The notes beneath the pieces were generated by a model. The model did no database searches and was not told where the DNA came from. It was given only the letters and a program-made list of their open reading frames with translations. From NCBI GenBank assembly GCA_030053945.1, contig JASGCW010000005.1:1-64000 (forward strand): 64,000 nucleotides of DNA. The letters run 5' to 3'. Of this stretch, positions 31,214 through 50,657 are shown piece after piece (positions within the stretch are counted from its first letter, which is position 1; each line of letters starts with the position of its first letter). Made by a program: the position numbers and the translations under genes. This stretch comes from Limnohabitans sp. GTDB taxonomy: Bacteria > Bacteroidota > Bacteroidia > Flavobacteriales > Flavobacteriaceae.

Positions 31214-31308
31214 TACCTGTTTAGATACTTTTTCTTTTGCAAGATTTACAAAACCGTACGATTTTTTAGCATTGAGTATGTTTTGCAATATTTTATACCG
31301 CGATAGGC

Positions 31309-31390
31309 TTAAAAAAGAGGCGTTAAATGCCTCTTGAAATCTTCATAACCTTAATTCGATATTCCCATAGTTGACGGAGCGTAATCGGTT
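31309..31390. repeat. dispersed ~80-bp repeat, copy 1
   Basis: TTAAAAAAGAGGCGTTAAATGCCTCTTGAAATCTTCATAACCTTAATTCGATATTCCCATAG; near-identical to 32358-32439. Confidence 0.8.
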
Positions 31391-31455
31391 CCGTTCAACA
31401 GAGGTTTCATTGTTCGTGCTTCGCACGCAACGAAACCTTAGCTATTAGCTGCTGC
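31391..31455 (-). repeat. attC-like structured site S1
   Basis: on minus strand AGCTAATAGCTAAGGTTTCG...CGTGC-GAA-GCACG...GTTGAAC; starts 9 bp after stop of CDS 31460-32260. Confidence 0.5.
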
Positions 31456-31459
31456 CTTT

Positions 31460-32260
31460 TTATTTAATTTGGTTTGAAATGCTTTTAATTGCGTTACTCG
31501 CTTTCAGTCTTTTTTGTGCTTTTTCCAGTTCAATTACTTTTTCATCTAAAATCATTTCTATTCCAGTTTTTACTGGTAAAAAGTGACTTAAACATTCTTG
31601 TTCTTCAAGTTCGTGTATTCCTTTACTCAATATACCATACAATTGTTTATGTTCAACTAAAAAATCAGGTAAATGATTAATTAGTATTTCAATTTTTTCA
31701 TTCATTCGGCTTTTTTGATAAGTTTCCTCATTCCATCCATTATCTTTACTTGCATTAATATGAGCTTCTTCAATTAAATTTTCAAATATTCTTCTCAAAT
31801 AAACAAATGAGCCAATTCCAACACCATTAGCAGCCAGTCCAATTGCTTTGGTGAACTCTTTCAATATTTCTTTTGGTATTACTTTAGAATATTCTTTTAT
31901 TTGACCGATATGTAAGTCAGCAATTGATGGATATTGTCCAATTTTCTCTAAAAAATAATTTCCTTTCTCTGTTTTTTGTATTGTATGGAAATAATATTCA
32001 AAAACAAGATTGGAACGTAAACAAGTTAATTTTGCGATTGTAGTTTTGTCAAAGTAAGTCGGCGTTACATTATATGCCTCGTAGTTAGAATAAATTACAA
32101 CTTTAAAAGTTGTTTGCTCTTTTAAATAAGGATTATAAGCATCTATTCGACCATTGAAAGAAACAAGTTCTTCAAAGTTTTTTAGTTCATTATTGGTGAT
32201 TTCAATAGTAGAATACAAAGGAAGTTCAAAGAAAAAATTATATGGGTCAAGGTAATTCAT
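31460..32260 (-). CDS. hypothetical protein (cassette-like orphan)
   Basis: 266-aa ORF flanked by structured repeats. Confidence 0.65.
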   Translation of the reverse strand: MNYLDPYNFFFELPLYSTIEITNNELKNFEELVSFNGRIDAYNPYLKEQTTFKVVIYSNYEAYNVTPTYFDKTTIAKLTCLRSNLVFEYYFHTIQKTEKGNYFLEKIGQYPSIADLHIGQIKEYSKVIPKEILKEFTKAIGLAANGVGIGSFVYLRRIFENLIEEAHINASKDNGWNEETYQKSRMNEKIEILINHLPDFLVEHKQLYGILSKGIHELEEQECLSHFLPVKTGIEMILDEKVIELEKAQKRLKASNAIKSISNQIK

Positions 32261-32357
32261 ATTTTATAAATTTTACGATTTTGTTTAAGGTTGCAGCTAA
32301 CGGCAGTCTGTGAAAAAACTTCACAAACTGCATCAAATATAGCTAAAATAGTTTGTT

Positions 32358-32439
32358 TTAAAAAAGAGGCGTTAAATGCCTCTTGAAATCTTCATAACCT
32401 TAATTCGATATTCCCATAGTGAACGGAGCGTAATCGGTT
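32358..32439. repeat. dispersed ~80-bp repeat, copy 2
   Basis: see copy 1. Confidence 0.8.
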
Positions 32440-32486
32440 TACTTCACCTAACATTAATTTTTATAGGAGTTCAGTGAATTTATTTC

Positions 32487-32544
32487 GTTCAACAGAGGTT
32501 TCATTGTTGGCTCTTCGAGCCCAACGATACCTTAGCTGTTGGCG
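32487..32544 (-). repeat. attC-like structured site S2
   Basis: minus strand CGCCAACAGCTAAGGTATCGTTGGGCTC-GAA-GAGCCAACAATGAAACCTCTGTTGAAC. Confidence 0.5.
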
Positions 32545-32562
32545 GTAGTTTTTTTTGAAATG

Positions 32563-33087
32563 TTATTTTCCGTTGACAATTATATCTTTATCTATAATTT
32601 CAAAATTTAAATTTTCTAACTCATTAAATAGTTCATTTATATTCAAAACTAAACCCAATTCATTTTTTACTGACTTTTGAATTTCACGGAATTTATTATT
32701 GTAATCTTCATCCGAAATTTTTTTTATTTCTTCAAATTTATCAAGATACGATTCTTTAAATGTTGAAAAATTTTCATTTCTTAATACTTTATATCCAAAA
32801 TATGCCACATTTAAATTCATAATATTTTTTCCTAAAATCATATAAACAGGAAAAACATTTATTCCTTTAACGTCTAATAATATATTCTCTTGGTCAAATC
32901 CTAATCTGTTTAAGTGAACAGGTAATATAGATAACTCACGCAAAAAATATATTTTGTTATTCAGTTGAGTTTCCTTTTTGTCGTGTAAAGATTGAACAGT
33001 GAAATGAGATTCTGTTTGTTTAATCAACTTAACTTGGAAATAATTATATTCTTTTCCTTTAATTTCATAATAATTATTTTCTTTCAT
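32563..33087 (-). CDS. hypothetical protein (start reassigned to the internal MKENNYYEIKG)
   Basis: ORF 32563-33132; internal Met gives a more natural intergenic spacing. Confidence 0.55.
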   Translation of the reverse strand: MKENNYYEIKGKEYNYFQVKLIKQTESHFTVQSLHDKKETQLNNKIYFLRELSILPVHLNRLGFDQENILLDVKGINVFPVYMILGKNIMNLNVAYFGYKVLRNENFSTFKESYLDKFEEIKKISDEDYNNKFREIQKSVKNELGLVLNINELFNELENLNFEIIDKDIIVNGK

Positions 33088-33156
33088 TTTTATCTTTTTT
33101 AAATTAATTGCAATATTATACATTGATGACACTTAAGAATATTTATTGAAAAATAA

Positions 33157-33594
33157 TTAATTCTTATTTGGAAATGGATCTTCGTCAGCTTTTAAAAATG
33201 CTGATCCAATTCTTCGATATTTCATTTCTTTTCCTTTTACACAAACTGAATACATTCCATTTCCTTTCTGTTCAGAAATTTTTAGAAATTTAATATCACT
33301 AACTTCACATTCATTTTCCACTGCGATGTGTTTTCTTAAATCTTCAATTGTTGCATCAACACGTTTTAGCCAAGATTGAATGTTTTTATCTGGTTTAGGT
33401 TCAACATAATCACTCGCTAAATTACATTTGTCTGTAGATTTGTCTAATTCTGCTTTTCCTTTAACGTCAATATATTCCCAAGTATTATTTTCTCTCAATA
33501 ATACACGTTTTCCATCTTCCGTCGTTGCTATTTTACTTTGGGAAAAAGTGAAAAAGGATAAAAATAAAAAGCTAATAATTAATAATTTATTCAT
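33157..33594 (-). CDS. secreted hypothetical protein (DUF3157-like)
   Basis: signal peptide; ATTEDGKRVLLRENNTWEYID. Confidence 0.65.
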   Translation of the reverse strand: MNKLLIISFLFLSFFTFSQSKIATTEDGKRVLLRENNTWEYIDVKGKAELDKSTDKCNLASDYVEPKPDKNIQSWLKRVDATIEDLRKHIAVENECEVSDIKFLKISEQKGNGMYSVCVKGKEMKYRRIGSAFLKADEDPFPNKN

Positions 33595-33648
33595 AAGATT
33601 AAATTTTGATGTTTGTTATTTATAGTTTCGTTCCTTTAAAATTTCTGC

Positions 33649-33777
33649 GAACGTCCCGCCAGCTTGCAGAAGTGGCGAACTTTGTGACTGTAACTTTCTA
33701 CTAAGAAAAAAATAATCGCGAAAAACAAATATGAATTTAGGAATTTTCTCGCCATTTCTGCAAGCTGCTGTTAGCCG
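33649..33777 (-). repeat. attC-like structured site S4
   Basis: GAACGTCCCGC-CAGCTTGCAGAAGTGGCGA ... TCGCCATTTCTGCAAGCTG-CTGTTAGCCG; 19-bp stem (18 Watson-Crick plus one G-T). Confidence 0.6.
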
Positions 33778-33783
33778 TTCGGT

Positions 33784-34026
33784 TTATTCTTCTTTTGCGT
33801 TACTTAATAAATATGCTCCTGCTATTGCCATTAAACCAAAATACACTGGAGTTGCTGACATATAACCACCATTTTCCCCATAACTTCCGCTCCATTCTGA
33901 ACTCAAATTGTACATTCTAATAATATTACCACTGTCTTTAACAAGTAAGTTTATTGTAAATAATAATACTGATAATACAGGTGGAAAAAGTAAAATGTAA
34001 CCGATTGTTTTTTGTATATTTTTCAT
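33784..34026 (-). CDS. small two-TM membrane protein, hypothetical
   Basis: 80-aa ORF with two hydrophobic segments. Confidence 0.55.
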   Translation of the reverse strand: MKNIQKTIGYILLFPPVLSVLLFTINLLVKDSGNIIRMYNLSSEWSGSYGENGGYMSATPVYFGLMAIAGAYLLSNAKEE

Positions 34027-34301
34027 AATTTATAATTTTTAGTTAGATATTTTGTTACTTTCAATTAACTGCATTTGTTCTTGAAACTCTTTGTAAACTT
34101 GTGGGTAAACCTATTTCAGGACAAGACAGTTACTGCGAAGCTAAAAAAACAAATACTATTATCCTTACGGGAAACCGTAAAAATTGTAAACTAAAAAAGT
34201 TAGACAATAAAGAAGTTTCAACTATTTATTTAGTAACCAGTTCACGTTATAAAGAAATGTCAACTGTTTTCTTTTAATGATTAAAAAAATCACAAGGTTA
34301 C

Positions 34302-34490
34302 CATAATTCTTTTTGGGGTTGGTATAATTCCTTTTCAGATTGCGATATTTCTTTTTTGGGATGTCATAATTCTTTTTGGGGTTAGCATAATTCCTTTTCG
34401 GATTGCGATATTTCTTTTTTGGGATGCCATAATTCTTTTTGGAGTTGGTATAATTCCTTTTCGGGCTGCTATATTTCTTTTTTGGGAGAC
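34302..34490. repeat. tandem array 1: nine 21-bp units (three 63-bp higher-order units)
   Basis: CATAATTCTTTTTGGGGTTGG / TATAATTCCTTTTCAGATTGC / GATATTTCTTTTTTGGGATGT repeated three times. Confidence 0.9.
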
Positions 34491-34517
34491 TGGACAGAAT
34501 TTTGTGTAAACTCCACA

Positions 34518-34706
34518 AATGCTTAATGTTTTATTTTAAATGCTTTGAGCTATTATTTAAATGTTCTGAGCTATTAACTCAATGCTTTGAGCCTTTATTT
34601 TAATGCTCTGAGTCATTAGCTCAATGCTTTGAGTCTTTCTTTTAATGCTCTGAGTCATTAGCTCAATGCTTTGAGTCTTTCTTTTAATGTTATGAACTAT
34701 TGTTAT
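34518..34706. repeat. tandem array 2: nine 21-bp units (first and last degenerate)
   Basis: AATGCTTTGAGTCTTTCTTTT / AATGCTCTGAGTCATTAGCTC alternating units. Confidence 0.9.
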
Positions 34707-35181
34707 TAAAGTAGGAAGCTAAATGACTGAATCTTTAAACCAAAATTTAACAATTAATACGAAAAAACCGTACTCAATGATTTTTATTTTTTTCTAGTTT
34801 TAGCCCCTAAAAAGGTGTTTTTTTTAAAATCAGATTATATAAAACTATTGAAACAAACTTCAATTTATTATTATAATATAATTGAACAAATTCATAAAAA
34901 ACACTTTATTTTTTAAACAAAACACCTCCACAAATATTTTAGATTATTATAATACTAGAAAGCGTTATACATCAATGCAAATAATGGTAATGCGAGGTGA
35001 TATTAAAGACTATATACAAATTCTTTGTGAACTTTGTAAAAAATAACTTAAACTGTTTGTCTTCAGATTTGTTTTCCTATTTTTTTAATTGACTGTAGTT
35101 CTTATTTTTGTGTCACAAAATTTTATCATTAATATTTGTAGTACATTTAATGCGTCCCTGATTCAAAATTAGCTTCTGCCA

Positions 35182-36429
35182 ATGATCTTAAAAAAAATAG
35201 CCGTATTTCTAATCGCATTAATTAGTTCAATAACGGTAGCACAAGAAAGTAATTCAACAACTAAAAAAAACTTTAACTTTATTGGAGTGGGTTATACTAT
35301 GGGTCAAACTATGTCACCCCTAAGTATTTTTCCAGAAACAAAAAACCAACAAGGTTTTGACCTTACGCTGGGCACTACTACCTTTGAAAACGACACTTGG
35401 GCTAAACTACTAAATTATCCCAAAACAGGTATATTGCTTTCCTACGCTGATTTCGGGAATCAGGAAAAAGTGGGCTATGGCATTTCAATAATGCCTTTCT
35501 TAGATTTTGGCGTTCTAAATAAGGTTACGAATAGAATCCGCTTTCAAGTGGGTCTGGGAGCTTCCTACAACAACCTCATCTACGACAAAGAGACTAATTC
35601 AGGGAATCACGCCGTATCGACACACTTTACTTGGGCTTTTCGTTCGTTTTTGTACTATGATTTGGTACATCGCAAAGACTTCAATGTTAAAATTGGCGGT
35701 GGGCTTACCCACTTTTCCAATGGTCATACCAGTTGGCCTAATCTGGGGTTGAATTCGTATTTAGCAACGATCAAAACCGAATTTAATTTTGCAAAAAATA
35801 GTAGGGCTCTTTTAGAAGATACTGCTGATGCAGGTCTGTCAGAGGCACAAACTTACTATACTACTCGGCTAGGTTTTGGAAAAAAAACATTGTTTAGAAA
35901 TTACAATTCCCTTAAAAATGTTTACACCGCTTCTTTTGGAATGGGTCGGATAAAGAACAAATCGTTCAAATACGGACTAAGTTTCTATTATCGATTTTAT
36001 GAAGATTATTATGACTATATCAAGGAGGAAGGCGGCATTATTACTACTCATTTTCCAAAATTGACCAACAATCCTTTTCAAAACGCAACAGCTTTAGGGT
36101 TATTTGGCAATTGTGAAATTTTAATGAATCATTTTAGTGTAGAAGCAGAAGTTGGTATTAATCTTTATAAGCCGAGTTACGAATTAGATTGGCATGTAAA
36201 CAATGGAGGTTATACCGAATCAGACATTGCTGCTGAGTTTGGTACCCAAGCAAAAATTAAAAAATACCTTTCTTCCCGTTTGGGTTTACGTTATTATGCG
36301 ATTACTGCTAAAAAAGCACCCCAACACAATGTGTTTATGGCTGTAAACATTAATTCAAACGTTCTACAAGCTGATTTTACGGAACTTAGTTTTGGCTATG
36401 TGTATTGTCCAAAATCGAAAAAAAAGTAG
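35182..36429 (+). CDS. acyloxyacyl hydrolase / lipid A deacylase (PagL-like) outer membrane protein
   Basis: signal peptide; GGGLTHFSNGHTSWPNLGLNSY PagL-type His/Ser motif. Confidence 0.7.
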   Translation: MILKKIAVFLIALISSITVAQESNSTTKKNFNFIGVGYTMGQTMSPLSIFPETKNQQGFDLTLGTTTFENDTWAKLLNYPKTGILLSYADFGNQEKVGYGISIMPFLDFGVLNKVTNRIRFQVGLGASYNNLIYDKETNSGNHAVSTHFTWAFRSFLYYDLVHRKDFNVKIGGGLTHFSNGHTSWPNLGLNSYLATIKTEFNFAKNSRALLEDTADAGLSEAQTYYTTRLGFGKKTLFRNYNSLKNVYTASFGMGRIKNKSFKYGLSFYYRFYEDYYDYIKEEGGIITTHFPKLTNNPFQNATALGLFGNCEILMNHFSVEAEVGINLYKPSYELDWHVNNGGYTESDIAAEFGTQAKIKKYLSSRLGLRYYAITAKKAPQHNVFMAVNINSNVLQADFTELSFGYVYCPKSKKK

Positions 36430-36445
36430 GTTTTTAAAAAAAATT

Positions 36446-36470
36446 GCCACTCCCGATAGATATCGGGAGC
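36446..36470. terminator. palindromic hairpin
   Basis: CTCCCGATAGATATCGGGAG. Confidence 0.5.
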
Positions 36471-36657
36471 ACAGATAAAAACAATCTCAGTTACAATAAG
36501 TCTTAGTCTTTAAATTATAGTTTAGACTTTGGGGAGCTTGGCAGCTCGGCAAGATTACTATTAATCCAATTTCAATTAGTCATAAAAAATTTAGCCCATT
36601 CATTAATTTTACATCTAAGCTAATTTTACATTTATCCTTGAAATAGCCTTATTCCAA

Positions 36658-37089
36658 TTACATTTTCAACCACCACTTCAACGTTGTTAACTTATCCTTT
36701 TCTATCTCGGTTAAATTTTGCTTTTCGAATTCGGCTATTTTAATTTTTACATATTCCATTCCGTAATTTTCTTTTATCCAAAAAGGAAATTCCTCCACAC
36801 TTTTATTCCAATTTCCAATTGTTGATTTTAAAATAGGGAGTAAATCTAAATCTGTTTTTGGTTTAAACTTATCCAATATTTTTCCTGCATATTCTTGGTC
36901 AAGACATTCTGTATTGGGTCTTTCTGTATTTTGAAATATTTTAATTATTCCACCGATTATAACTTCTTCTTCAACTTTATCTAATCTATAAATCAATTGC
37001 TGGATCCTCTGACTTCCAATTTTATCTATTAATTCAATAGATGAATAAAATTCGTTTTGGAAATCATCTGGTGTTGTTGGTATTTTCAT
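36658..37089 (-). CDS. hypothetical protein
   Basis: 143-aa ORF with good start. Confidence 0.6.
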   Translation of the reverse strand: MKIPTTPDDFQNEFYSSIELIDKIGSQRIQQLIYRLDKVEEEVIIGGIIKIFQNTERPNTECLDQEYAGKILDKFKPKTDLDLLPILKSTIGNWNKSVEEFPFWIKENYGMEYVKIKIAEFEKQNLTEIEKDKLTTLKWWLKM

Positions 37090-37175
37090 TTTTTTTAAGT
37101 TGATAAAACTTCACACACAATATTCAAACACACCTACAATAGTTGCTCAAAAAAAATTATTAACTCATACAACCT

Positions 37176-38120
37176 TTAGCTGTATATGTCACTTTTCTTT
37201 TTCAATTCGGTATACGTCTTTATATAAATTGGTGTTTCTATGTTATATTTTTCTCCTTGTAGAATTACATAGTTTGTTAAAGATTCTAATTCGGTATAAT
37301 TATTTTTATTTTTAAAATCAGTATGCATTGAAGAAGTAGTCTCAAATGGTAATGATTTCAGTTTTTTTATGGTTTGCTCTACTATATCTTCTGAAATTAA
37401 AATGTTTTTTGCGTTTGCAATTTGTTTTACCTCATTAATAAGTTCGGTAACAGTTTCGATGTGTTTTTCTGAAACTATTTCACCTATACTTTTGTCAAAA
37501 TAGGCTGTTGCTGTTGCTGTTGGAGAAATAAAAATAAATTTTTCCCAAATTATTGAAGAAATATTTTTAGAAAGCGTTGCTTCAATAGTTGCATTTTTAA
37601 AAATAGTTTCATAATGTTTTAGCCTTTGACTATAAAAATTATCAAGACCAAAATATAGAGTTTGAATATTACCAATATTTTCGATTGTTCCTGCTTGTTT
37701 CAAACGAGAGACAATATAAACACAGCCGTCTAAAATTGTATTATTAGGAAGTATATTTTGAACTTTCTCTTTACTATCAACACCATTTAGAAGTGGCAGA
37801 ATAATTGTACTTTCATCAATACAAGGTTTTAATTGTTGAACTACATTTTCTATATCATAACTTTTTGTACAAATTATAATTAAGTCAGCATTTCCAATTT
37901 CAGTCGGGTTGTCGGTTGCTATTTTGGGTTTGCAAATAATTTCGTTCTTGCCTTTGATTACTTTTAACCCATTTTTTTTTATTTCTTGCAAGTTTTGCCC
38001 ACGAGCAAAAAAGCAAATTTCAACTTCTTCACTATTAAAATAGTGGTAAGCCAATAGTCCACCAAAGTAGCCTCCAACTCCTCCAATTCCTGCAATTACT
38101 ATTTTTGTTCTTGTATTCAT
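37176..38120 (-). CDS. ketopantoate reductase family (2-dehydropantoate 2-reductase-like)
   Basis: GIGGVGGYFGGLLA Rossmann motif; ICTKSYD; LLNGVDS; WEKFIFI. Confidence 0.88.
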   Translation of the reverse strand: MNTRTKIVIAGIGGVGGYFGGLLAYHYFNSEEVEICFFARGQNLQEIKKNGLKVIKGKNEIICKPKIATDNPTEIGNADLIIICTKSYDIENVVQQLKPCIDESTIILPLLNGVDSKEKVQNILPNNTILDGCVYIVSRLKQAGTIENIGNIQTLYFGLDNFYSQRLKHYETIFKNATIEATLSKNISSIIWEKFIFISPTATATAYFDKSIGEIVSEKHIETVTELINEVKQIANAKNILISEDIVEQTIKKLKSLPFETTSSMHTDFKNKNNYTELESLTNYVILQGEKYNIETPIYIKTYTELKKKSDIYS

Positions 38121-38553
38121 TTTCTTATGTTTCGATTGTCATAAAGTGCCACACAACTCATAAATAGACGAACCTAATTTTAGTATTTAACTTATAGCTT
38201 CTTTGTATAAAACAATACAAAAAAGCGAGTTTCACTTTTCTGTATTATTTTGTGGTATTGATAACTTCACAAATATATACAAAACTCAATGCAATTTCTC
38301 ATCCTGATTATATACCTCCTACAACTTTCAAAACGCTACTCTAAGATACCATCACACTTGGCATCATTTGTGCGACTGTGGATATAATCTTTAAAAATCA
38401 GTTTCAACCCAAGTAGTTGAAATAATAATTTAAAAAAAAAACAACTTTTTAATTATAAGTTCACTTATTCATGTATTTTGCACTTATAAATCCTATTTTT
38501 ATTGTGGATAAAATAACTTTAAAAATTAACAATAAACCTGAAATTAAACCTTC

Positions 38554-39291
38554 ATGGAAAACAACGACATAACCACAAATCCTATTATTCCTGCTGAAGT
38601 AACAAAAGCTGATCCAAGAATAAAAAAAGCTGAATTACTACCTCATCCCGATTCTCAATTAGATTCATTTCTTATGAAAATTCATCCTATAGATGATGCA
38701 AGTATTCCGTACAGAGACCTAACTAATCTTGAATCTAAAAAAAATAGCATCAAAAAATTAATCGCAAAACTGGATGTATCTCACAATACTAGATACCAAC
38801 GTACAATTGAAGACACTTATTGTAATGTATATTCGTTTGATTATTGTTACTTTTGCAAAGTCTATTTGCCAACAGTATGGTGGACGGATGAAGCGCTTCA
38901 AAAAGTTTTAAACGGAGAACAGGTTGAAGCTGTCTTTGGTGAAACAGTCGATAATATTTATTCCAGTGCCATTCACGATTGGTTTCTAACTTGGGGCGCA
39001 AGCTTTGGGTGGAAAAGAATGACTAGCCTAGATGAAATTCAACACAAAGTAAATACCGAAGGTGGTATAGGAATTATTTGTGCCAAAAGAAGACAAGTAG
39101 GTCTTTCTGGTCATATTGTACCTATTGTACCTGAAACAAAATTTAAAAAAGCCTATCGAGAAGATGGTGTGGTTAAGTACCCGCTACAATCGCAAGCCGG
39201 AAAATTAAATTACAACTATTTTGCTAAAGCAAGAAAAGACTGGTGGAATCACGAACGTTATTCTTCTCACGTTTTTTACTATCACGAATAA
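38554..39291 (+). CDS. NlpC/P60- or CHAP-like cysteine peptidase/amidase (predicted)
   Basis: CNVYSFDYCYFCKVYLPTVWW and GLSGHIVPIVPE suggest Cys-His dyad. Confidence 0.4.
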   Translation: MENNDITTNPIIPAEVTKADPRIKKAELLPHPDSQLDSFLMKIHPIDDASIPYRDLTNLESKKNSIKKLIAKLDVSHNTRYQRTIEDTYCNVYSFDYCYFCKVYLPTVWWTDEALQKVLNGEQVEAVFGETVDNIYSSAIHDWFLTWGASFGWKRMTSLDEIQHKVNTEGGIGIICAKRRQVGLSGHIVPIVPETKFKKAYREDGVVKYPLQSQAGKLNYNYFAKARKDWWNHERYSSHVFYYHE

Positions 39292-39542
39292 AAAAATAGT
39301 ACATTCTTTCGAGCGTTCCAAAAAAACTAGAAAGTAAAACTTAAAATTTAGGCAAAAGCAAACTACCTAGTAGAGTTCTAGAGGTAGTATGAAATAATAA
39401 TCCTAGATTCACATATTTTAAAAATCATTTTTAATCTGTGGATCTTAGTCAATATTGAAATTGACAAAAAAATCGAAGCCCAGCTTTGAAGAATTAAACC
39501 TAAAGAGATTATAATTAATAATAACAAAAGCATACATCATAC

Positions 39543-41081
39543 ATGAAAAAACACAAATCAACAAAATACTACTGGGGAATTGGACTAGAAAACGAAACCT
39601 ATATGCAGTTTGAAAAACCCCTAATAGTTTCTGGTGATTTTATTCAGGAAAAAATAGGTCGGGAACGATACAGTCTTGATTATACCACCTATTACAAACC
39701 TGGAAGTCTTGATTTTGTGTTAAAAACTGCTTTTGATGCTAGTAAAAATTATTTTGTAAGCCGAATGATGAATAGTCATTCGTTAGAAAAACTAGATACA
39801 CTGTTTAACCATAGAACCTTACCTAAACCTAAAGCTACGACCACTCCTGATTCTGGCTCTGTAAGCAGTGATACGATAGAAAACCCTGATTTTCTTGGCA
39901 AAACTATTTTAGACTTGTTTTTAGAAAAACAGCCTTTTAATGTTAGAAGTATGGTTACTACCAAAACAAATCCTATGGGATCTATTTGTTTTGATGGTGA
40001 TTCTATCGAATTTGTAACCAAATATTTTGAAAACAGAACGGTTGAAGAATCATGCAACGAATTGAGAGCTACAAAGCAATTATTTATTGACAAAATAAAT
40101 GAATCTGAAATTTTAGGTGAAAAACTACATTTCCCTAAATACAACAGTGGTTTTAATATGTTTATGTCAAACCAAAAAAATATTGTTTTGTTCAATAATG
40201 GTACTTTCCATTTCCATATAACCCTACCTACCTACACCGAAAATAGCCGAATTGTAGATTACGACACTTTCGACCAAGTGCATAGTAATGCGATGTATTT
40301 ACTACAGTGGTTTCAGCCATTGTATATTGCTACTTTAGGAAGTCCCGATATTATGGGAGTTATAAGTCAAAAGTACAATTTAGGGAAGAACTACGCTTTA
40401 GGCTCGATGCGAAATGCGATGTCTCGTTATATAGGCGTGGGAACCTTCAATAAAACTATGGATAAAGGAAAAATCCTTACCTATAAAGTAGAAGATTTTA
40501 GAAAGTTATTAAAATTTAACAAGGAAGACAATATCTGGTGGCGTGACCAAATTGAAAATGATATGGAGTACATACTGCTATCTGAAGTTGGCTTAGATTT
40601 CAATAAGGAGAAAATGTATCAAAGCGGATTTGAATTACGATGTTTTGATGAGTTTCCAACAGCATATTTGAACGACGTCTTACACGCAATCATTTTAATT
40701 TGTGAACATTCATTACATTTACCAGATGTGGGTTGGAGTCACGACAGTATTGTTTGGAATAACTTAATTTTCAAATCTTTAAAACACGGTTATACGACTG
40801 AAATTACCCCCGAAGAAAAACTCGAAATTTTAACACTTTTACAATTGATTGACGGTTCTGCAACCGACATAAACTTGGCTGCCCCTGAATTTGAAGAGAT
40901 AACCAAATTAGATGCCTTTTTCTTTAAAATTCTAGAAATTCTACATCATAAATACAAGGATGAGAATACGTGTTTAAATGCTATGTTTAGCCAAAAACCT
41001 ACTGAATCACCTAAATGGGATAATTTTAATAAGTACCAAATTGAACAGCATTTGAAGCAAATTGAGGCCTTGAAGGATTAA
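39543..41081 (+). CDS. putative glutamine-synthetase/GCS-fold carboxylate-amine ligase (amidoligase-like)
   Basis: YWGIGLENETY, GSLDFVLKTAF, NIVLFNNGTFHFHITLPT, ALGSMRNAMSRYIGVGTF. Confidence 0.4.
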   Translation: MKKHKSTKYYWGIGLENETYMQFEKPLIVSGDFIQEKIGRERYSLDYTTYYKPGSLDFVLKTAFDASKNYFVSRMMNSHSLEKLDTLFNHRTLPKPKATTTPDSGSVSSDTIENPDFLGKTILDLFLEKQPFNVRSMVTTKTNPMGSICFDGDSIEFVTKYFENRTVEESCNELRATKQLFIDKINESEILGEKLHFPKYNSGFNMFMSNQKNIVLFNNGTFHFHITLPTYTENSRIVDYDTFDQVHSNAMYLLQWFQPLYIATLGSPDIMGVISQKYNLGKNYALGSMRNAMSRYIGVGTFNKTMDKGKILTYKVEDFRKLLKFNKEDNIWWRDQIENDMEYILLSEVGLDFNKEKMYQSGFELRCFDEFPTAYLNDVLHAIILICEHSLHLPDVGWSHDSIVWNNLIFKSLKHGYTTEITPEEKLEILTLLQLIDGSATDINLAAPEFEEITKLDAFFFKILEILHHKYKDENTCLNAMFSQKPTESPKWDNFNKYQIEQHLKQIEALKD

Positions 41082-41197
41082 AACCGAAGTTGAAATATTA
41101 TGTTTAACCACAAAGTTCACGAAGCATTACACGAAGTTCACAAAGAGGTTTGTGTTATTTACTTCGGGAAGAAGATTGAAAAATAAATTTTACACAT

Positions 41198-41848
41198 ATG
41201 ACATTAAAGCAAATCATATCGTTTATAATTATCTTTTTCTTACATCTTGGTTATTCTCAAAATTCAAATACTGAATTAATAAAGTATATTCAAAATGCTG
41301 ATAAAATCCTTTTAGTCAGTCACGAAAGTTTTAATTTTAATGAATACGAAGATCAAGATGAAAATAATCGAAAAAAACTAAATGAATTGAAAGAATTAAA
41401 AAAACTAAATGAAAACAATGACACTGAAAATTTAAAAAAAAGCAGAAAAATCTATTTGGAGTTGGAGGAAATGATAGAAGCCAAAAATTCACTCAATAGA
41501 AATTTATTAGATAATGGTGTACCAAATAAAAGAATAATACGAGAAGAAACATTCTTAAATGAAATTACAAAAAAAGAGCTACTAGAAATTATATCAAAAC
41601 AAAAAAGGGACACTTTTGAAGGCGCGTTTTGTTTTAATCCTCATCATACTATTTTTATTTTTTCTCAAGAAAAATGGTCATATATAGACATTTGTTTTGG
41701 TTGTAACAATTATTCTTTTAGCAATGATCTAAACATTGATAAAAAAGAGTTTTTAGCAACTCTGGAAGATTGGAAAACGTTAGAAAATTTTTTCAGAAAA
41801 TTGAATTTAAACTATTTACTTCCAAAACAAAGACAACAAACAAACTAA
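41198..41848 (+). CDS. secreted hypothetical protein
   Basis: signal peptide; 216-aa ORF. Confidence 0.6.
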   Translation: MTLKQIISFIIIFFLHLGYSQNSNTELIKYIQNADKILLVSHESFNFNEYEDQDENNRKKLNELKELKKLNENNDTENLKKSRKIYLELEEMIEAKNSLNRNLLDNGVPNKRIIREETFLNEITKKELLEIISKQKRDTFEGAFCFNPHHTIFIFSQEKWSYIDICFGCNNYSFSNDLNIDKKEFLATLEDWKTLENFFRKLNLNYLLPKQRQQTN

Positions 41849-42353
41849 ACCACTTTGGATTGAAAGTCCACGCTTACTAAATATCAAATTTCACTACAAA
41901 TTACTAGATTCTAACGATTACAAATCATTAAAACTCTATGTGTATTTGTGTATCTATCAAATAATTCGGAGCTTTTAAAAAACTAAAAATCCTTTTGCAA
42001 TATGAGATAAGAATCAGTTTATAATCTTAGCGAAAGAAAAAATTTAAAAAGGCTTGAAAAACCTTGCATACCTTTAAAAAAAATAAAACATTAAGGAATT
42101 AAGATAATTAAGTTTACATAATAGCTAATCACACTTTGATTCTTAATTTTTCTTAATCTTAATGGTAAAAAAAAGAATGCAGTATAAATTAATTGTGACT
42201 CTATCTTTACATGTCTTTAAGTTGGTTTCTTGAGTTTATCAGCAAGCCCTAAATAGAAGTATCAAACACCTTTTGCATATCCCCAAATTTTCACTTAAAC
42301 ATTCCCATAGTGACGAAGCAGAAACGGTAAGCTTGCTCTGAGTTTATCAAAGG

Positions 42354-42460
42354 GTTCAACACTGGTTTATTTCACTAAATTTTAATTTTTAAGGTGTTCA
42401 GTGAATTCATTTCATTGTTGGCTATTCGATGCCCGACGAAACCTTAGCTGTTAGGTGAAG
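42354..42460 (-). repeat. attC-like structured site S3
   Basis: minus strand ACCTAACAGCTAAGGTTTCGTCGGGC...GTTGAAC; outer GTTAGGTGAAG complementary to CTTCACCTAAC of S2 region; 7 bp after stop of CDS 42464-44146. Confidence 0.55.
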
Positions 42461-42463
42461 ATT

Positions 42464-44146
42464 TTATTCTTTTAATACATTTTTGAATTTTTCTATCAAC
42501 GCTTCAGTTGACATCTTAAAAGGAATTTTCCGTGTGGAAATTGCACTAATTCGCTCTGTTAAATTTCTGTTAGCTCTATACATAGCAACTTGTGCGTTAT
42601 TTGTGTCAACTTTTTTAATAGTTTGCATACGATATAAATGGTCGTTAATTATTTCTTTAAAATGTTTGTCTTTTTGTTTAAGGTATGGTATCCAAACAAT
42701 TAAAGTGTCTATATCAATGACAGTTAAGCCTTTTATATTTGTTGGATTGTATTTTTCTCCAAGTTGGTTTTTCACTATTTCACGATACCAATTGTTTAAC
42801 CTATAATTTACACCTGGTGACTGGAAAATCCTGTCTTGGATGATTAATATGGGATAAATTTCAAGACCATTTTTAAAATTTACATATTCATCGAATCGAA
42901 ATTTCTTATCTTGGATTTCTTGTATCGAATTTACCAATTGTCCTATTCCCACAACTTTTTTTCCGTCTTTTACAAACTTTGATCGTAAAACTGCATTGAT
43001 TTCTTCAATGTTTGCAGAAGACTTTATAGCTTTTGCTATAAGAACGTCCTTGTTCTCAAATAATAGAACTGTGTTATTATGACGAACATAATAGTCGGGT
43101 TCTCCATCTAATTCATTTTCTCGTTCAGGTTTTTTTATATAATATTTTTTATCAAAAATATCATCAAGAAGGTTTTTCATTAAGAAATCTTCTGAAAAGT
43201 GCTTATTAAAGAAACCGAAAAAATTACCATACTTTTTTTTTATTGGTTCAATGGTTTCGTAAATCTCTTTAAGTTTAAATTTAGTGCTTCTGTAAAATTT
43301 GTCAATGGCAAAGAAATAATTAACTACTGAAAATAAATCTTTATCTAAAAAATAAATTGGATTATCTTTTAAATGGGTGAAATCTTCATCGATTTGAATG
43401 TTTTCAGAGGTTATGGATTTTAAAAAATCTGATGAAGTTGTATCAGTTATTTTAAAAACATAGCTTTTTGCCATTTTAGAACTTAGTAGTTGCCCAAATA
43501 AATACTTCATTTGATATAGAAAGTCTTCTTCATTATCAGTATTGAAACTGTTTAAAAACTGCTTTTTTAATTCTTCAAATTCAGCATTGCTGTTTAGGAA
43601 TTTAAATAATTCTTCTACTTTATAAATCGTAGAATAGACTAGTTTTAGAAATTCCCAGTCATCGTTATCAAAAAGTGCTAAATCTGATTCTGGAAACTTA
43701 AAAACTAAGCTTAAATCAACTAATTTCTCAAAATTGTCAGCTTCCAAATTGTCTAACTTTTGAACACCATTGAGCTGACTATTTATTGCTAAGAAAGCTT
43801 TAAATAAGTTTAATTCATCATCATCAATTGAAGTTAATTTATTGTTTAAAATAGCTTTATTAGACAAGATAAGTTCTGCTAATTTTAAGCTTGCATATTT
43901 TGATATAACTTCTGGTTTATTAGATATATTATTTTTCTTTGAATATGCAACTACTCGATTGTATATCTGTTCGTGTAAGTCAGGATTTGAAAAGAAATTA
44001 TCAAAATTTGTTTCTGGATTAGTATTACAAAAACCTATAGTTTTTAGAAGTGTCTCTTTTGATACTTTACTTAAATAAAATAGTACATCTTGTTGATCTT
44101 CTTCTGGAAAAACATTGTTGAATTCCAATCGTTGTATAACTTTCAT
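42464..44146 (-). CDS. hypothetical protein with PD-(D/E)XK-like nuclease motif (cassette-like)
   Basis: DGEPDYYVRHNNTVLLFENKD resembles PD...ExK; 560 aa. Confidence 0.6.
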   Translation of the reverse strand: MKVIQRLEFNNVFPEEDQQDVLFYLSKVSKETLLKTIGFCNTNPETNFDNFFSNPDLHEQIYNRVVAYSKKNNISNKPEVISKYASLKLAELILSNKAILNNKLTSIDDDELNLFKAFLAINSQLNGVQKLDNLEADNFEKLVDLSLVFKFPESDLALFDNDDWEFLKLVYSTIYKVEELFKFLNSNAEFEELKKQFLNSFNTDNEEDFLYQMKYLFGQLLSSKMAKSYVFKITDTTSSDFLKSITSENIQIDEDFTHLKDNPIYFLDKDLFSVVNYFFAIDKFYRSTKFKLKEIYETIEPIKKKYGNFFGFFNKHFSEDFLMKNLLDDIFDKKYYIKKPERENELDGEPDYYVRHNNTVLLFENKDVLIAKAIKSSANIEEINAVLRSKFVKDGKKVVGIGQLVNSIQEIQDKKFRFDEYVNFKNGLEIYPILIIQDRIFQSPGVNYRLNNWYREIVKNQLGEKYNPTNIKGLTVIDIDTLIVWIPYLKQKDKHFKEIINDHLYRMQTIKKVDTNNAQVAMYRANRNLTERISAISTRKIPFKMSTEALIEKFKNVLKE

Positions 44147-44175
44147 CTTTTTTGCGTAATGTGTGGGAAACTTTC

Positions 44176-44260
44176 GCCTAACGTCCCGCTCGGCTTGACG
44201 AAGTTTTCAAAGAGCGCTTTGATCGAATTTGAAAATTTTGTCAAGGTGACTCATATGCGA
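44176..44260 (-). repeat. degenerate attC-like element upstream of CDS 42464-44146
   Basis: minus GTTAGGC; CTTGACGAAGTTTTCAAA...TTTGAAAATTTTGTCAAG hairpin; AACGTCCCGC shared with S4. Confidence 0.4.
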
Positions 44261-50531: not shown

Positions 50532-50657
50532 AGTTTTTTGTTTTGTATCCTACTCGTATGGCTTTTCGATTTCGCCCCGTTTATTTGAGTGATGTCTGGT
50601 CTTCACTAAAAATTTAGATAGTATTTCTATTTTACCCTAAAATTACTTTTATAACAT

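Follow-up and report, generated by a model that had tools for sequence, protein, structure and literature searches.

Probable integron-type gene cassettes of an IntI-related recombinase lacking the I2 patch in a Flavobacteriaceae genome

Known cassette systems and the locus under study

For cassette capture, the integron integrase IntI is said to need its I2 patch (PMC7790495). Deletion of I2 kills IntI1, the missing ancestral form is stated as a limit (PMC4792948, PMC7790495), and the origin of I2 has been called a chicken-and-egg paradox (PMC4792948). IntegronFinder requires an IntI-specific domain (PMC9668308), so loci headed by an integrase without I2 would not be called complete integrons. 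Here we looked at a 64-kb stretch of DNA, hereafter the window (positions 1 to 64,000 of contig JASGCW010000005.1, assembly GCA_030053945.1, a Flavobacteriaceae genome deposited as Limnohabitans sp.). Four structured repeats, S1 to S4, lie on its minus strand after stop codons, at the positions where the original prediction had placed them. We conclude that the window very probably contains cassettes of an integron-type gene-capture system, in an arrangement resembling clusters of attC sites lacking integron-integrases (CALIN), and that this system, found in the genus and across the Bacteroidota, uses an IntI-related recombinase without I2. Neither an I2-less integron nor a Flavobacterium superintegron turned up in the open-access literature searched, subscription papers and preprints being outside its scope.

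The system has much in common with IntI integrons such as class 1 integrons and the Vibrio superintegrons: an attI-like insertion point beside the integrase, oriented arrays, attC sites with the R''/L''/L'/R' layout ending in ACGTT, mutually complementary cassette ends, mostly orphan genes and, in some chromosomes, hundreds of cassettes. The closest match of its integrase, both by sequence and by predicted fold (an AlphaFold model made with an alignment), is the solved structure of IntI4 (2a3v). In contrast to IntI integrons, the integrase lacks I2 and is extended at its N-terminus by an additional domain of some 70 aa, the attI-like junction lies 3' of the integrase gene with the array co-directional, the R boxes are variable beyond GTT (not RRRY), and an A.C mismatch is conserved at position 11. 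XerA, XerC and XerD have the same catalytic fold and no I2, and the NCBIfam model XerA_Arch scores about equal to the integron model on the patch-less integrase; unlike it, Xer recombinases act on dif and have no link to cassette arrays. In our tree, XerC and XerD of the window's genome fall outside the group formed by IntI and the patch-less integrases. A CALIN comprises at least two attC sites with no integrase nearby. The window appears CALIN-like in its attC sites and cassettes lying far from any integrase, but its genome encodes a related integrase at another array. It holds one canonical attC recognised by model (S4) and three composite sites (S1 to S3), S4 being contiguous with the S2 and S1 cassettes.

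Cassette ends, attC sites and integrase

Each cassette begins with a 5' sequence that is reverse-complementary to the 3' end of the same cassette (GTT-N7-A-TTTT, gene, AAAA-C-N7-AAC). Position by position, GTT and seven variable bases pair, a fixed A.C mismatch follows at position 11, four more bases pair and then pairing stops. Start and end of the same cassette agreed in at least 12 of 14 scored positions at 42 of 102 sites, versus 39 of 2040 combinations with swapped ends. In the genome of the window, tandem arrays of the repeats are found on contigs C286 and C309, and most of their units start complementary to their own end. Over 201 cassettes, 174 open reading frames were sense and 14 antisense. 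The stop codon stood a median of 17 nt from the cassette end, and 18 of 20 cassette proteins checked belonged to no Pfam family. Complementary R''/R' ends, one gene in sense orientation and a short 3' distance to the attC, as in integron cassettes, are all found here. A class 1 integron cassette used as control had 12/12 complementary ends without the A.C mismatch. In a complete Flavobacterium genome (G097), an array of 177 kb lies behind the integrase, and its attC sites, about 254, are all on the plus strand (0 on the minus strand); 211 of its 213 independently called cassettes carry A.C, versus 1 in the opposite-strand control and none in the 20 kb upstream. A short version of the same integrase-array arrangement is present on the Chryseobacterium plasmid NZ_CP041688. 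The plasmid array (L230 13299-17081) also encodes a group II intron reverse transcriptase and a transposase of the IS110 family, a parallel to classical integrons with their group IIC introns and their IS110 elements that target attC.

The cassettes are separated by an attC of about 119 nt, with an imperfect, covarying stem and a constant spacer of 116-121 nt. An alignment of 14 sites from diverse genera, none from the genome of the window, gave a 17-pair stem with compensatory changes in 15 of the 17 pairs. Stem covariation was 0.569 versus 0.198 in shuffled alignments (0 of 500 reached it) and at most 0.174 in slid alignments. A second A.C mismatch is conserved at L-stem position 15 (18 of 28 sites). 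R'' AAC, R' GTT, an imperfect L''/L' stem and structure conserved over sequence are therefore all present. The attC covariance-model search that the original prediction had proposed was done with a model (R2) built solely from other genomes. In the 64-kb window it gave a single match, S4, with 65.6 bits and E 3.9e-11 (E-values of these home-made models are rough), and it matched 94 places in the genome of the window (E<=1), 136 of 150 sampled genomes of the genus and 145 of 300 of the phylum, where hits within a genome were counted up to a cap.

Homologues of a 350-aa tyrosine recombinase were found just upstream of arrays and co-directional with them. In a survey biased toward the lineage of the query, a cassette start scoring at least 13/14 lay 30-300 bp 3' of the integrase stop at 37 of 85 loci, versus 1 of 85 in reversed sequence; on the divergent side, such a start was present at 4 of 81. 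The loci come from Flavobacteriales, Cytophagales, Sphingobacteriales and Bacteroidales, with single records from Bacillota and Spirochaetota. In the first cassettes at the integrase, the unscored position 11 was A.C in 36 of 38. A first cassette start thus stands beside the integrase, as at attI, though 3' of its gene, and the attI-like junction is often preceded by an inverted repeat together with a TATA-rich segment, for example ATATATACTA or GCGTATAT.

The integrase is IntI-like, but a segment of about 40 residues that holds the I2 patch is absent: the stretch from the hairpin of the catalytic lysine (K) to HxLR measures 61-68 aa in all 103 homologues versus 104 in IntI1, and model TIGR02249 scores 203 bits against a cut-off of 265, with its positions 178-240 unmatched. 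Strictly defined, an integron has an IntI with I2, and the system is therefore not classed as one; it is organised like an integron and most likely works like one. The original prediction had spoken of cassettes without a visible integrase, which holds locally for the window and not for its genome. There, contig C158 shows an integrase C-terminus at the contig edge, then an attI-like junction, a cassette (GTTGTACGAAATTAA ... TTAACTTCGTACAAC, ends matching 14/15) and an attC. Contig C307 (L044 370-1437) encodes a full-length patch-less integrase amid housekeeping genes; it was rejected as an array head, its 3' side having neither an attI-like junction nor an array. Fragments of related integrases (119-134 aa) are present on contigs C14, C25 and C92. 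A search for the IntI-specific patch, also proposed, found no IntI over the cut-off in this genome; since its own integrase has no such patch, that search would have been a false negative.

Could a classical I2-bearing IntI, located elsewhere or recently lost, have built the arrays, with the patch-less recombinase as a bystander? Such integrases are common in other classes of the same phylum, as 86 of 300 phylum genomes encode an I2-bearing IntI over the curated cut-off, almost all of them outside the class of the window genome. Against this, no such IntI passed the cut-off in this genome or in any genus member sampled, and the class yielded one. Patch-less integrases have the cassette boundary at their 3' end (37/85 versus 1/85 reversed), whereas for the I2-bearing IntI of the phylum it is more often on the divergent 5' side (6/30 versus 2/30), and the class 1 control lacks the A.C mismatch. 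We therefore consider a bystander role very unlikely. The count of 86 in 300 is in itself higher than published numbers of complete integrons in Bacteroidetes suggest.

Layout of the window and IS91-family inserts in its attC sites

Cassette boundaries in the window were taken as the best reverse complement of each cassette 3' end within 6 kb upstream. The search scored 12/14 for S1, 11/14 for S2 and 12/14 for S3; position 11, left out of the score, was A.C in all three, and the boundaries fall exactly behind GCC or GGGAC, the usual attC end. Read on the minus strand from 34026 to 31290, the order is an 80-aa gene, the S4 attC, the S2 cassette, the S2 composite site, the S1 cassette and the S1 composite site; the S3 cassette is separate from this run.

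33770 to 34026, minus strand: S4 cassette, 3' part, with the 80-aa gene (33784-34026) and R'' CGGCTAAC ending at 33770
33653 to 33769, minus strand: S4 canonical attC core, 117 nt from R'' AAC to the next GTT, within the 116-121 nt peak (full model match 33645-33777)
32538 to 33652, minus strand: S2 cassette with genes 33157-33594 and 32563-33132, starting GTTCGCAGAAATTTT directly after the S4 attC and ending AAAACTACCGCCAAC; decayed, 11/14 complementary
32302 to 32537, minus strand: S2 composite attC with an R''-proximal AGCTAAGG hairpin (32498-32537), an end hairpin GTTTGTGAA..TTCACAGAC and the boundary GCC/GTT
31444 to 32301, minus strand: S1 cassette, starting GTTAGCTGCAACCTT and ending AAGGCAGCAGCTAAT, with gene 31460-32260 (266 aa, no Pfam)
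31290 to 31443, minus strand: S1 composite attC remnant with a AGCTAAGG hairpin (31404-31443), about 150 bp of an IS91-family element end and a terminator-like hairpin
44183 to 44250, minus strand: shortened attC, 3' part, ahead of the S3 cassette, ending GAGCGGGAC before GTT, with a degenerate R''; not detected when the window was scanned with R2
42450 to 44182, minus strand: S3 cassette, starting GTTAGGCGAAAGTTT and ending AAATCTTCACCTAAC, with gene 42464-44146 (560 aa, no Pfam)
42270 to 42449, minus strand: S3 composite attC remnant with a AGCTAAGG hairpin (42409-42449) and an IS91-family-derived insert

The 5' start of the S4 cassette was also sought, and no candidate stood above chance (best 10/14). 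Homologues of two of the genes are found in better preserved surroundings: in G124, that of the 266-aa S1 protein lies in a cassette with 14/14 ends and a canonical attC, and in G011, that of the 560-aa S3 protein has a canonical attC directly behind it. The GTTGAAC that follows S1 to S3 had been proposed as the cassette boundary. This was rejected, as the cassette R'' pairs instead with ACGTT or attI boundaries; the boundaries pairing with the 3' ends of the cassettes are the GTT at 32301 (S1), 33652 (S2) and 44182 (S3).

S1, S2 and S3 stand close behind their stop codons with a common layout, AGCTAAGGTTTCGTTG-hairpin-AACAATGAA. Compared with 200 shuffles, the hairpins of S1 (z -4.0) and S2 (z -4.7) folded better than all 200; S3 alone folds weakly (z -1.0), and S4 gave z -3.8. 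No Rfam match was obtained for S1 to S4. A model (R1) made from S1 to S3 and their copies in the same genome matches 28 copies there, and 47 of the 150 genus genomes have hits (S3, itself among the R1 sequences, has E 1.4e-13), which, with the R2 match of S4, speaks against chance. In four genomes (G165, G069, G137 and G135), an IS91-family element of 2.4 kb terminates precisely in the AGCTAAGG hairpin. Besides its Zn_Tnp_IS91/Y2_Tnp transposase, the autonomous element encodes a tyrosine recombinase (by Pfam, in the G165 copy), so that the HUH Y2 transposase, the Zn-binding domain and the defined ends of the IS91 family are all found in autonomous copies. It is flanked by a cassette R'' on the left and the L''-L' part of an attC on the right. 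The window copies retain one end only, about 150 bp of which align with the ends in the same four genomes (alignment A3); S1 to S3 are thus attC sites enlarged by element remnants, and their hairpins are the terminal hairpins of IS91-family-derived inserts inside attC, not attC cores. The AGCTAAGG hairpin as the attC core of composite sites was rejected, being a precise element end with changing flanks. Solo hairpins are ambiguous in this respect: in L033 (5470-5535), L035 (10145-10200) and L100 (6043-6100) they are REP-like (repetitive extragenic palindromic) palindromes of about 55 bp, AAY-AGCTAAGG..CCTTAGCT-RTT, and the one in L100 separates two genes in place of a normal attC.

The IS1111-attC group comprises insertion sequences that insert repeatedly and precisely inside attC. 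The inserts described here do likewise, but come from an element of the IS91 family that also encodes an accessory tyrosine recombinase, and they sit after R'' AAC. In L081 and L082 (G165:C1:993-1016 kb), about six near-identical IS91-family elements lie one per attC between R'' and L'', each with its accessory recombinase. No description of repeated precise attC targeting by an IS91-type element was found in the papers searched. The S2 composite site also has a terminator-like hairpin and a promoter-like TAnnTTTG box (32334-32345), which may act as terminator and promoter. Near the far end of composite sites, a promoter-like TATATTTG may drive the next cassette. The composite attC sites of L031 and L032 hold 0-3 inserted hairpin units of about 48 bp (TCACTGAACACC..AGTGAAGTAAA). 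Another remnant in the genome of the window (L032 1446-1652 and similar composite sites) resembles the N-terminus of an IS1182-like transposase (GISRNQSHLSSLEDKI..RFIDAFI).

These inserts bear on the reading in which S1 to S3 are mere dispersed IS91-family hairpins, of the miniature inverted-repeat transposable element or REP-like kind, at neutral post-stop sites, with no cassette system. In its favour, the hairpins of S1 to S3 are indeed ends of an element with transposase and tyrosine recombinase; S4 is an ordinary attC. Hairpins as the whole explanation are already contradicted and very improbable: both the cassette signature and the attC model apply to arrays free of IS91 elements, S4 has no such element, and the element is flanked by R'' on one side and L''-L' on the other. 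Least probable of all is that long attC repeats gave rise to the arrays through slippage or homologous recombination instead of site-specific recombination, for although composite sites within one genome are long and near identical, this would not account for complementary ends that are particular to each cassette, for a fixed attI-like junction behind the integrase or for conserved structure with diverged sequence across genera.

Proposed mechanism and evolutionary questions

The proposal of integron-type cassettes is thus borne out by end complementarity, tandem arrays, the attC model match, attI-like junctions and the associated integrase, and has to be dropped where the S1 to S3 hairpins were taken as attC. 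In the genus and across the Bacteroidota, a tyrosine recombinase without I2 has an attI-like junction beside its gene, some 40-250 bp past the stop codon, and cassettes accumulate there in the same direction. In the mechanism that we propose by analogy with integrons, the attC of a circular cassette would fold in single-stranded form, with R''/R' made by pairing between the two ends of that cassette; the integrase would cut between G and TT and join the cassette at attI. The A.C mismatches (R-stem 11, L-stem 15) may contribute to strand choice in place of extrahelical bases or in addition to them. In the window, the attC sites of S1 to S3 have additionally been invaded by the IS91-family element or a short derivative.

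Several observations weigh against this reading. The cassettes of the window itself are decayed (11-12/14) and the S4 start was not found. At 48 of 85 integrase loci the best start is below 13/14 (some loci being truncated at contig ends), and many integrase homologues, including that of C307, have no adjoining array. Cassettes shared between arrays were sought among the fetched loci and none was found. Finally, the case for recombination comes from sequence comparison, with one genome per species.

In the best tree, classical IntI form a single clade inside the patch-less group. The alternative tree with the patch-less integrases as one clade was not rejected (approximately unbiased test, p = 0.30), and we therefore make no claim of ancestry. 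As a tentative idea, which we hold to be possible rather than probable, I2-less integrons may be the older form, folded-attC recombination predating the gain of I2 on the classical IntI branch and A.C mismatches doing part of the work of extrahelical bases and I2. The necessity and origin of I2 become directly testable with a natural I2-less integrase that heads about 254 attC sites. With a recombinase without I2, this very large cassette system, widespread in Flavobacterium and relatives, bears directly on integron evolution. It holds a large store of uncharacterised genes, one of its arrays is plasmid-borne, and such arrays help explain fragmented assemblies; in the genome of the window, many contigs have an attC at their end.

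Other repeats were seen beside the cassettes. Upstream of the S4 gene, window positions 34290-34700 contain degenerate noncoding tandem repeats with ttctttttggggttggtataattcc and aatgctctgagtcattagctc units. Near a cassette array of another genome, L085 9609-11399 (G007:C24) has at least 6 tandem copies of a unit of about 358 bp with GTTGAACTTTCAACACGCTCAGAGG. Unrelated to the cassettes, window positions 50543-50611 match the DUF805 RNA (RF03081) with 74.6 bits.

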